A stretch of DNA of 33,167 nucleotides. It comes from Vulcanisaeta sp. GTDB lineage: Archaea > Thermoproteota > Thermoprotei > Thermoproteales > Thermocladiaceae. Position 1 is the stretch's first letter. Each line of letters opens with the position of its first letter. The notes under the pieces were generated by a model. The model did not search any database. It saw nothing but the letters and a program-made list of their open reading frames with translations, and was not told where the DNA came from. The DNA is taken from positions 1-33,167 of the forward strand of contig JAKMAE010000003.1 in the NCBI GenBank assembly GCA_022014875.1, written 5' to 3'. Positions 28,320 through 32,421 of this stretch are shown here, in pieces. A program made the position numbers and the translations under genes.

Positions 28320-30332
28320 TTACATCGTTACTACTTCGTACTCCTTATTCCTCCTACCATTGGCGAAGGCGAAGGCTATCGCCGCAGCCCCGCCCAGCCC
28401 TAGGGTCCCTATTAGTGCCTCCGTTGTTGTTATTGGGAACCCATCTATTATGGCCAGTATGTCGGACTTTATCGTTATCACATCATTCCCATTAATGGTG
28501 ACTAATTCACTGTACTTCAAATTACCGTACTGAGCAGTCACTAGATATGTACCGCTAAGCACGTTGGTGAAGCTGGCAGTCCCAATGCTATTAGTCGTAC
28601 CGTTATAGACAGGGCCTGTGCCGACCCTATATAGCGTTATTTTCGCGTTAGGTATCGCCTGGTTCCTCGCGCCTACGAATAGCACTGTGACGTTGTACAG
28701 CCCAATGGTTACCTGGATTGGTTGGTTAATCAGTGAGTTGACGTTGACGTAGTACAGCGGCACACCCTCGTAGTACACAACGGCTGTGAATGGCGCTGGC
28801 TCGTCAATACTTACGTAGGCATTACCGTCAGAACCACTGACGGCTGTCGCCACCAGTGAACCATTGACGTAGGCCTTAACCACAACACCACTTATCGGCG
28901 TGTTTACCGTGTTCGTGAAGTGCATCGTTATTGGTGTCCAGTTAACATACACCGTGTATGTGCCAGTCTCACTAACGCCCAACGTTGAGACCGCTATATA
29001 AGCCTGGGAGCCATCCGGGCTTATTGAGACCAGCCTTTCCGCGCTTCCCCATGGAACCTCTGAATTAACAAGCCCTGTATAGACCGTACCGCTTGGTGTA
29101 ACGATCTTGTATATATGCGCTATCTCGGGTAACTGAACAACCAGGGCTGTCCATAGGCCGCCAGAGACGTCAGCGTCAGTCACAGTTACCTGCAGGTTCC
29201 CGTTTACCCACTGACCCACCGGCTTGTATATTATTGGCATGAACGTGACCACCAAGGGAACGTCTAGGTTATCAACAACCTCGAAGTACCTGTCATAGAC
29301 TATGTATATTCCGAACATGGGTGCAAACCTAATGAATGGAGGCAGTAGGTAGCTTATGCCGCTGACCTGCACCAGCGTGCTGTATAGGGAAACAGGCGAC
29401 ACCCTATTCGCGACTATCTCGAAGTGTCCAGGCTGCTCCCCAACGATTAGGGGCTGCACTGTGTAGACAACAACTATGTAGCCAAGTAGGTTCCAGCCAG
29501 GCGGTACGCCAAACTCTGAACCGGTTATCTCGAGGGTCTGGCCTGGATTGACCGTGTAATTGAGGAACTCCGTACCCTTGACCAACATCGCGCTCGGCAT
29601 TACATACTCACTGCCGTAGTTGATGATTACCTGATACTGGCCAGGAGGTAATTCGTTGGCTATGAACTCGGCGTACTTAGGCTCAATCTTTATGTAATTA
29701 GCCAGCGGGCTCCACTCAGAAACAAGTTGGGAAAGCGTTGTTCCGTTCGGTAGAGCAACACCAGCTATCTCAAACGGCATGTAGTTAGGTATTGAGAGCT
29801 CAACTACTTGCTGTGTGACGTACTGTATCGACTCGTCGGGTATGGCCACATTAAGCGTGAAGGATGTGGCTGATGTATTAAGTGCGAGGTATTCCTCCTT
29901 AATGAATACGTAGGTTATGGTTATTGTCTCGTTGATTGGTTTATTACCAGCATTTGTTATGGTTAACTGATTGCTCCTCGTGTAAGCGCTGACTACGGCA
30001 CCAATCTCGTTCTCACTATACATCACACCACTACCGCTAATCACCAATGCCGGGGATGGCTGGCTGATATGTACCTCTATGTAATCGAGCACGTAACCAG
30101 GCCCTGGAGGTAATGGCGCCTGTATGGTTATGGATTGGCCAGGCGTTAGCGTTACAGTCCTCGTAGTGTTTATATAATCTATGTACTCAAGCGATGCGTA
30201 GTATGGCTGGTTAATTGTGGTTGGTGCGTTTACGTTGGGCGAAACCTGGTACTGAGTGGCTAAAACCATGATTGGGATTGCTACGGCCATTACTAGGAGG
30301 ATCGCTACTAAAATCCTCCTTATACCGTTCAC
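28320..30332 (-). CDS. Large envelope protein with Ig-like domains and C-terminal membrane anchor
   Basis: The protein has about 670 residues. The N-terminus (MNGIRRILVAILLVMAVAIPIMVLA) is a signal peptide. The body is beta-rich with many N-x-S/T sequons. Two carboxypeptidase-regulatory or CnaB-like modules lie near the end: one around NTPISGVVVKAYVNGSLVA, one around NQAIPNAKITLYRVGTG. A hydrophobic helix (ALIGTLGLGGAAAIAFAFA) and a charged tail anchor the C-terminus. It is probably a surface structural or S-layer-associated protein. I chose GTG 30332, not the TTG at 30446, because a TATA-like box at 30355-30364 lies 27 bases upstream and the longer form would cross the C/D box sRNA on the other strand. 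Confidence 0.8.
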   Translation of the reverse strand: MNGIRRILVAILLVMAVAIPIMVLATQYQVSPNVNAPTTINQPYYASLEYIDYINTTRTVTLTPGQSITIQAPLPPGPGYVLDYIEVHISQPSPALVISGSGVMYSENEIGAVVSAYTRSNQLTITNAGNKPINETITITYVFIKEEYLALNTSATSFTLNVAIPDESIQYVTQQVVELSIPNYMPFEIAGVALPNGTTLSQLVSEWSPLANYIKIEPKYAEFIANELPPGQYQVIINYGSEYVMPSAMLVKGTEFLNYTVNPGQTLEITGSEFGVPPGWNLLGYIVVVYTVQPLIVGEQPGHFEIVANRVSPVSLYSTLVQVSGISYLLPPFIRFAPMFGIYIVYDRYFEVVDNLDVPLVVTFMPIIYKPVGQWVNGNLQVTVTDADVSGGLWTALVVQLPEIAHIYKIVTPSGTVYTGLVNSEVPWGSAERLVSISPDGSQAYIAVSTLGVSETGTYTVYVNWTPITMHFTNTVNTPISGVVVKAYVNGSLVATAVSGSDGNAYVSIDEPAPFTAVVYYEGVPLYYVNVNSLINQPIQVTIGLYNVTVLFVGARNQAIPNAKITLYRVGTGPVYNGTTNSIGTASFTNVLSGTYLVTAQYGNLKYSELVTINGNDVITIKSDILAIIDGFPITTTEALIGTLGLGGAAAIAFAFANGRRNKEYEVVTM

Positions 30333-30354
30333 GGTATTGGGTATGGACAAAATC

Positions 30355-30364
30355 AATATTAAAT
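30355..30364 (-). promoter_or_regulatory. TATA-like box that decides the start of the large surface protein
   Basis: The minus strand reads ATTTAATATT, centred 27 bases before GTG 30332. Confidence 0.5.
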
Positions 30365-30424
30365 AATTAATTAAAATAACTAATGCAATTCGTATTGAGG
30401 CGTGTCTTCGACCGATATTATAGG

Positions 30425-30481
30425 GGGTGTGATGAGCCCTAGACAAGCTGATGAGTGAGGATACCGTTCTAGGCTGATCAA
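30425..30481 (+). ncRNA. C/D box guide sRNA (predicted, near-canonical spacing)
   Basis: On the plus strand: C box GTGATGA (30429-30435), a 12-base guide GCCCTAGACAAG (30436-30447), D' box CTGA (30448-30451), a 3-base spacer TGA, C' box GTGAGGA (30455-30461), a 12-base guide TACCGTTCTAGG (30462-30473), and D box CTGA (30474-30477). Both guides have the 12-base length and the D'-C' gap of three bases seen in archaeal box C/D RNAs that direct 2'-O-methylation. The targets would be CTTGTCTAGGGC (D') and CCTAGAACGGTA (D), modified at the fifth base. I could not check them against rRNA or tRNA. It lies between divergent genes. Confidence 0.85.
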
Positions 30482-30570: not shown

Positions 30571-32421
30571 ATGAGTGATTGCACCGTTAGATTAATGCTC
30601 GGAAACCACGCCATTGCCCACGGAGCACTAGAGGCGGGCGTCGCAGTCGCAACGGGCTATCCAGGGACACCGTCAAGTGAGATAATAGAGTACCTAATCG
30701 ATTACGGCAGGGAATTTGGAGTATACGCTGAATGGAGCAGTAATGAGAAGGTTGCGTTTGAGATTGCGTACGGCGCCGCCCTAGCTGGTGCGAGGAGTAT
30801 CACTGCGATGAAGCATGTCGGCCTTAACGTAGCAATGGACCCACTCATGTCGAGCGCATACACCGGAGTTAGGGGCGGCTTCGTGATAGTCACCGCGGAT
30901 GACCCAAACATGTGGTCTAGCCAGAATGAGCAGGATAATAGGTGGGTGGGGCTTCACGCATATATACCCGTCTTCGAGCCGTACGACCCACAGAGCGCTA
31001 AGGATTTCGTAAAGATGGCCATTGAATTCAGCGAAAAGCACTCGCACCCGGTCATATTAAGGAGTGTGACCAGGGTATCACACGTTAGGGGACCGGTCAC
31101 GGTGTGCCAACCAGCTAAGCCTAGGTATGCCGAGGGTTATGTTAAGGACCCAAAAAGGCATGCGTTGATTCCTGCAAATGCCCGTGCACTTAAGGAGGAA
31201 TTGATAAAGAGGTGGGGAATTATCGAGAGGTCGGTTGATGAGTTACCGCATATGTACGTTGAGGGTGGCAGAAACCTCATAATAACCAGCGGTGTCGCCT
31301 TCACGTACACGCTAGAGGCCGTTAAGAACTACGGCGTTAGGGCCAGCATCCTCAACGTCGTCACGCCAGTGCCATTACCTAGGAAGACGATATTGAACGC
31401 CGTGTCTAATGCGGATAGAGTTGTGGTTGTCGAGGAGGGGGACCCCGTTGTTGAGCAGCAGTTGAAGGCACTGCTTTACGACGAAGGTATTAGGGTGCCC
31501 GTTCTTGGTAAGGCAGAAAACCTATTTAACAGGGTTGGGGAGTTAACGATTAATTCCGTAATGGATGGGTTATCCAAGGCGCTCAACATCGTTAATCCAT
31601 TATTATCGAAAAACCCGGTAAAGATTGACTACACACCACCACCGAGACCGCCAGTCTTCTGCCCTGGGTGTCCACATGCTGCGTCGTTCTATGAGTTGAA
31701 GATAAGTACCGCGAAGGCTGGCGTGAAACCTATCTTTAGTGGCGACATTGGATGCTACAGCCTAGGCATAAACAACCCATTCAATGAGCAGGACTTATTG
31801 ACTAACATGGGTAGCTCGCTCGGCTTAGGCATGGGTATTTACCACGGCACCCATGGAGGCGAATTCGTTGTGGCAATAATAGGTGACTCGACATTCTTCC
31901 ACGCCGGGCTACCGGCCCTTGTTAACGCGGTTTATAACAAAACCCCCATGTTGGTGGTTGTTCTTGACAACAGAGTAACGGCAATGACAGGCGGCCAACC
32001 AAACCCAACAAGTAAGGTAGACATAGGTAGCGTGGCCAAGGCCCTAGGCGCCGATTACGTAAGTACAGTCGACCCATTCGACGTAAAGAAGGCACAGGAA
32101 GTGATTAGTGAGGCTATAAATGTAGTGAGGAGGGGAGGGGTCGCGGTCGTCGTTATGAAGAGGGGCTGCGCACTTGAGGCGACCAGGCTCTTTAGGGGCT
32201 ACGTGGTTCGTTACTACGTTGATGAAAACGCCTGTAAGGCATGTGGTATATGCTACAACTTAATAGCGTGCCCAGCATTAATACCACTGGAGAATAGGAA
32301 GGCATGGATAGACCCATACATGTGTGTTGGGTGCTCAGTATGCGCCCAGGTATGCCCATACAACGCAATAAGACCTGAGGGCAACGTCAAGGAGTGGTTA
32401 AGTAAGTGGGCGGAAATGTGA
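30571..32421 (+). CDS. iorA: Indolepyruvate:ferredoxin oxidoreductase, alpha subunit
   Basis: The 616 residues have the full IorA order. The N-terminal pyruvate-oxidoreductase-like domain has GYPGTPSSEIIEYL and SNEKVAFEIAYGAALAG. The thiamine-diphosphate domain has FCPGCPHAASF, FSGDIGCYSLG and IIGDSTFFHAGLPALVNAVYN...DNRVTAMTGGQ. At the C-terminus are two 4Fe-4S sites, CKACGICYNLIACP and CVGCSVCAQVCP (about 559-598). The enzyme oxidatively decarboxylates aryl-pyruvates made from aromatic amino acids to aryl-acetyl-CoA and reduces ferredoxin. IorB follows in the same operon. Confidence 0.95.
   Translation: MSDCTVRLMLGNHAIAHGALEAGVAVATGYPGTPSSEIIEYLIDYGREFGVYAEWSSNEKVAFEIAYGAALAGARSITAMKHVGLNVAMDPLMSSAYTGVRGGFVIVTADDPNMWSSQNEQDNRWVGLHAYIPVFEPYDPQSAKDFVKMAIEFSEKHSHPVILRSVTRVSHVRGPVTVCQPAKPRYAEGYVKDPKRHALIPANARALKEELIKRWGIIERSVDELPHMYVEGGRNLIITSGVAFTYTLEAVKNYGVRASILNVVTPVPLPRKTILNAVSNADRVVVVEEGDPVVEQQLKALLYDEGIRVPVLGKAENLFNRVGELTINSVMDGLSKALNIVNPLLSKNPVKIDYTPPPRPPVFCPGCPHAASFYELKISTAKAGVKPIFSGDIGCYSLGINNPFNEQDLLTNMGSSLGLGMGIYHGTHGGEFVVAIIGDSTFFHAGLPALVNAVYNKTPMLVVVLDNRVTAMTGGQPNPTSKVDIGSVAKALGADYVSTVDPFDVKKAQEVISEAINVVRRGGVAVVVMKRGCALEATRLFRGYVVRYYVDENACKACGICYNLIACPALIPLENRKAWIDPYMCVGCSVCAQVCPYNAIRPEGNVKEWLSKWAEM

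Follow-up and report, generated by a model that had tools for sequence, protein, structure and literature searches.

We analysed a stretch of 33,167 nt (hereafter the window) that forms contig 25 of a 1.3-Mb Vulcanisaeta MAG with 80% completeness, asking whether a short set of box motifs in the spacer upstream of an iorA-like gene encodes a methylation-guide sRNA and, if so, which RNA that sRNA would act on. The iorA gene was 69–87% identical to Vulcanisaeta loci, with Caldivirga and Thermocladium as the next closest. Positions 30429–30477 on the plus strand are best read as encoding a C/D guide sRNA with 23S rRNA as its target, a reading to which we assign a probability of roughly 0.93 from sequence comparisons.

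Layout, conservation and genomic setting of the element

The features of the locus are as follows.

28320..30332, minus strand: divergent surface-protein gene with a CarboxypepD_reg domain; the conserved start is the GTG at 30332, not the TTG of the open reading frame at 30446
30429..30435, plus strand: box C, GTGATGA; TGATGA invariant in 11/11 aligned Vulcanisaeta sequences
30436..30447, plus strand: D' guide, GCCCTAGACAAG, 12 nt; core AGAC invariant
30448..30451, plus strand: box D', CTGA; GA invariant, first two bases variable in congeners
30452..30454, plus strand: D'–C' gap, TGA; 3 nt in most congeners and 4 nt in two, with variable sequence
30455..30461, plus strand: box C', GTGAGGA; TGANGA invariant
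30462..30473, plus strand: D guide, TACCGTTCTAGG, 12 nt; TTCTA invariant
30474..30477, plus strand: box D, CTGA; invariant in 11/11
30571..32421, plus strand: iorA-like 2-oxoacid (indolepyruvate) ferredoxin oxidoreductase alpha subunit, the syntenic downstream neighbour

The four boxes in order, the two 12-base guides and the 3-base D'–C' gap described in an earlier note on this DNA lie exactly so at 30429–30477, and they comprise the features of an archaeal C/D box sRNA, namely terminal C (RUGAUGA) and D (CUGA) boxes, internal C' and D' boxes and 12-nt guides. The canonical box pattern, with exact or flexible spacing, occurred once in the window and in none of 1500 order-2 Markov windows searched on both strands, and a much looser pattern had an expectation of 0.004 per window.

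Searched with a sequence-only model derived from 11 sequences, 12/12 Vulcanisaeta genomes gave one strong copy each (E 5e-12 to 2e-16), and none of the order's 33 remaining genomes gave a full-length match comparable to these. BLAST matches of congeners to a 116-base query, searched across the family, started at box C or at most one base from it. The invariant columns are TGATGA, most of the D' guide core, the GA of box D', TGANGA, TTCTA and CTGA, and the gap and guide edges vary. The element is kept genus-wide (12/12 genomes) and the kink-turn residues of its boxes are invariant in the alignment of 11, the opposite of the loss of boxes in close relatives that had been named as part of a refutation. 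Box D' is canonical in the window lineage only, congeners carrying CGGA, CCGA, TGGA or CAGA. One genome (G025) carries identical sRNA copies with flanks identical as far as printed (L167/L168; G025:C3:45477-45514 and 245915-245952); their position 200 kb apart on one contig suggests a repeat or an assembly duplication.

In the proposed covariance search, the Rfam families sR9, sR7, snoPyro_CD, sR1 and sR5 aligned end to end with the positions of the element, on the plus strand, at scores below their gathering thresholds (for sR9, 23.3 bits against 36). Such scores are to be expected where guide sequence dominates a family, and the element is not filed under Rfam's single-guide-set families since gathering scores were not reached, although it is of the same kind. 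A whole-window Rfam search at gathering level recovered a tRNA alone and no C/D family.

The longest open reading frame of the surface-protein gene reaches back to the TTG at 30446, inside the element, so that choosing the first start codon over-extends it (28320–30446) by 38 codons, as had been anticipated for gene callers. In congeners the extension region holds stop codons or poorly alignable sequence, and their surface protein starts at the GTG or a nearby ATG, preceded in most by a conserved promoter-like block, TTATTTTAATTGCTTATTTAATA. Because the conserved start is the GTG at 30332, the element falls outside the gene and is intergenic, which supports its description as lying in a divergent non-coding spacer. 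The order surface protein (minus), sRNA (plus) and iorA (plus) was fixed wherever neighbours were read, with the sRNA between the surface-protein gene and iorAB. In most congeners a TATA-like sequence, TTAAATATATAAAC or similar, stands upstream of box C and is likely the TATA box of their sRNA. The window lineage lacks this element and its upstream spacer (30340–30428) is about 35 nt shorter than those of congeners, and its promoter is therefore uncertain.

Pairing of the two guides with congeners' 23S rRNA

Since neither 16S nor 23S rRNA was detectable in the MAG, we looked for targets in six congeners whose 23S and 16S sequences are complete. The exact 12-mer targets predicted earlier, CTTGTCTAGGGC and CCTAGAACGGTA, found no exact match in the congeners' 16S or 23S rRNA, and none of CTAGAA, TCTAGG or CCTAGG occurred anywhere in the six complete 16S sequences. 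tRNAs were rejected as targets: the best match among the 18 found in the MAG covered 8–9 positions with G-U pairs, weaker than the 23S matches.

Assignment of an archaeal C/D guide generally calls for at least nine consecutive Watson–Crick pairs to a stable RNA, including the N+5 position, and is relaxed for double guides whose targets lie within 100 nt (PMC4644070). On congeners' 23S rRNA the window's D' guide forms nine such pairs including N+5, with GATGTCTAGGGA at ~1275, and has an A-A mismatch at position 2. Against their own complete 23S, 5/6 congeners form 10 contiguous Watson–Crick pairs including N+5 at ~1275, one of them adding a G-U pair; in JCM 16159 (G020) a mismatch within the D' guide leaves six contiguous pairs. 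The ~1275 site is the sole strong rRNA site of the D' guide in 5/6 congeners with complete rRNA. Shuffling the D' guide gave a score as high as the observed one in 0/300 trials for one congener and in 1/300 for another. Shuffles of the window's own D' guide also reached 9 bp in 25/300 trials, so that this guide taken alone is weak evidence and the case rests on conservation. By the N+5 rule and alignment with E. coli 23S rRNA, the predicted product is Um at E. coli ~1132, the starred U of GAUGU*CUAGGG.

The D guide of the window pairs with 23S CCTAGAAGGGTG (~1170) over seven Watson–Crick pairs, one mismatch and then four pairs, or 11/12 positions with one G-U. This site lies 105 nt upstream of GATGTCTAGGGA. 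The predicted product is Gm at E. coli ~1033 (the starred G of CCUAG*AAGGG), where the alignment is loose. The seven contiguous base pairs fall below the usual 9-bp criterion, and the 105-nt distance is just past the relaxed 100-nt range; in some congeners the contiguous pairing is weaker than in the window. The suggestion that the CTAG core shared by both guides makes their targets related or close was right as to proximity, the sites being 105 nt apart, and wrong as to cause, given that CTAG pairs in different registers at the two sites. A second CCTAGAA lies 41 nt beyond CCTAGAAGGGTG, in the GTPase-associated centre, at what we take to be E. coli ~G1068 by hand count from the well-known sequence of that centre.

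sRNAs addressing the same sites, and alternative readings

Double-guide sRNAs with the swapped guide order were found in another genus of the family (G009, loci L187/L209; G010, L172) and in another family (G043, L173; G044, L177). Their D' guide addresses ~1033 and their D guide ~1132. The own 23S rRNA of these four genomes was sought in the assemblies and not found; on Vulcanisaeta 23S rRNA the swapped sRNAs pair at 11–12/12 positions at the ~1033 site and at 9–10 at the ~1132 site. Their neighbours, judged from translations by eye, are a radical-SAM-like gene (G009, G010) and molybdopterin-type genes (G044), and not iorA.

The MAG itself encodes a second C/D sRNA aimed at both regions (sRNA B; L160, G000:C73:6397-6440, minus strand; D' guide GCCTAGACATG, D guide GACACCCTTCG), on a contig assigned to Vulcanisaeta by one of its proteins. 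It pairs over 9 bp at the same D' site and, with an offset of 3 nt, over 11 bp in the ~1033 region. It lies a short distance past the 3' end of a tRNA and is followed on the same strand by two more C/D-like sRNAs; a counterpart near the same tRNA and a DUF58-type gene was sought in other Vulcanisaeta and not found.

A clear counterpart of the element at 30429–30477 was sought, and not found, in the Pyrobaculum (g6) and g7 genomes searched. Both 23S sites are changed in the g6, g7 and g4 genomes in which no clear sRNA was detected, the altered sites in Pyrobaculum and g7 being GATGTACAGGGA and GATGTAGAGGGA. The 23S rRNA of G001 (g2) retains the first site almost intact, whereas its second site is altered.

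The methylation-guide reading made in the earlier note is upheld by the conservation in 12/12 genomes, by the constraint on boxes and guides, and by N+5 targets in 23S rRNA that the sRNAs of other genera also fit. The part played by the D guide is less firm. We lean towards its also directing methylation. It is possible, if rather doubtful, that only the D' guide directs methylation and that the contact made by the D guide is decaying or serves as a chaperone only: this guide forms 5–7 contiguous pairs in most Vulcanisaeta, is mismatched close to the D box in G014, G017, G024 and JCM 14467, and is weaker than the swapped sRNAs, which keep 11–12/12 positions paired. Against this, its TTCTA is invariant, the D guide of G024 has nine contiguous pairs and that of KMA_Bin30 pairs at 12/12 positions with G-U.

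Whether the D guide acts at ~G1068 and not at ~1033 was considered next to this, the identical 7-nt core being present there in most congeners. We regard such a target as quite improbable. Pairing outside the 7-nt core prefers ~1033 or ties, G024 has lost the second CCTAGAA (CCTAATAG) and retains its nine pairs to ~1033, and ~1033 is also the site matched by the swapped sRNAs and by sRNA B.

It is very unlikely that the locus is an orphan, either a C/D sRNA or a kink-turn element, that acts on tRNA, mRNA or the flanking genes and not on rRNA. The element does lie in a promoter region, and roughly one in three of the known archaeal C/D sRNAs has no clear rRNA target (PMC4644070); set against these points are the weaker tRNA pairing given above and the recurrence of the same guide pair at unrelated loci in other genera. 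Finally, a chance arrangement of common tetramers with no transcription is effectively refuted by the genus-wide conservation and the simulation (0/1500 windows), in agreement with the earlier view that the layout is too regular for chance.

The swap between genera may reflect circular permutation, module recombination or convergence. That the Vulcanisaeta sRNA and its swapped-order equivalents in two further genera of the Thermoproteales form a single, circularly permuted gene, plausibly a reintegrated circularised C/D sRNA that kept both contacts, is an unlikely version of these events on present comparisons. If it were true, and the swap at 23S ~1767/1831 were of the same kind, sRNA genes would have evolved repeatedly by permutation. 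The latter swap concerns another sRNA family (L159 on G000:C70, L162, L163 and L170), with guides ATGCCGAGTTCG and TCGGTTCTAKG to 23S ~1831 and ~1767; in Pyrobaculum G031 (L171) the guides of this family likewise stand in the opposite order.

Predicted action and comparison with known systems

From knowledge of the family (PMC4644070), the locus is predicted to yield a transcript of ~50–60 nt in which C with D and C' with D' would fold into kink-turns bound by L7Ae, and Nop5 and fibrillarin would be recruited to it. The sRNA would bind domain II of pre-23S rRNA close to the GTPase-associated centre. There it would direct 2'-O-methylation of the nucleotide facing the fifth guide base upstream of D' (Um ~1132) and probably also of the one facing the fifth base upstream of D (Gm ~1033). 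The contacts, 105 nt apart, could also help local rRNA folding.

The locus adds an sRNA gene that gene callers miss and that falls below Rfam thresholds, together with two specific predicted methylation sites adjoining the 23S GTPase-associated centre. One target pair addressed by guides in either order from unrelated loci makes a clear comparative case of guide-module reshuffling with the coupled targets kept. We found no paper on Vulcanisaeta C/D sRNAs among the open-access literature searched.

By its sequence features, among which the D guide is borderline, the Vulcanisaeta sRNA is an ordinary archaeal C/D methylation-guide sRNA, new only as an individual member. It resembles the sR families of Sulfolobus, Pyrococcus, Pyrobaculum and Thermoproteus in its RUGAUGA and CUGA boxes, internal C'/D' boxes, 12-nt guides, N+5 complementarity to rRNA and two targets ~100 nt apart, and differs from the Rfam models sR9, sR7 and snoPyro_CD in its guide sequences. 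Swapped guide order (sR88) and a 3-nt target shift between duplicates (sR24/25) have precedents in Methanopyrus (Dennis et al. 2015, PMC4644070), where sR39/119/88 and sR24/25 display swaps and shifts among related or duplicated sRNAs, as seen here. Unlike the Methanopyrus cases, the swap involving Vulcanisaeta is between genera and at different loci, and both guides still fit both targets.
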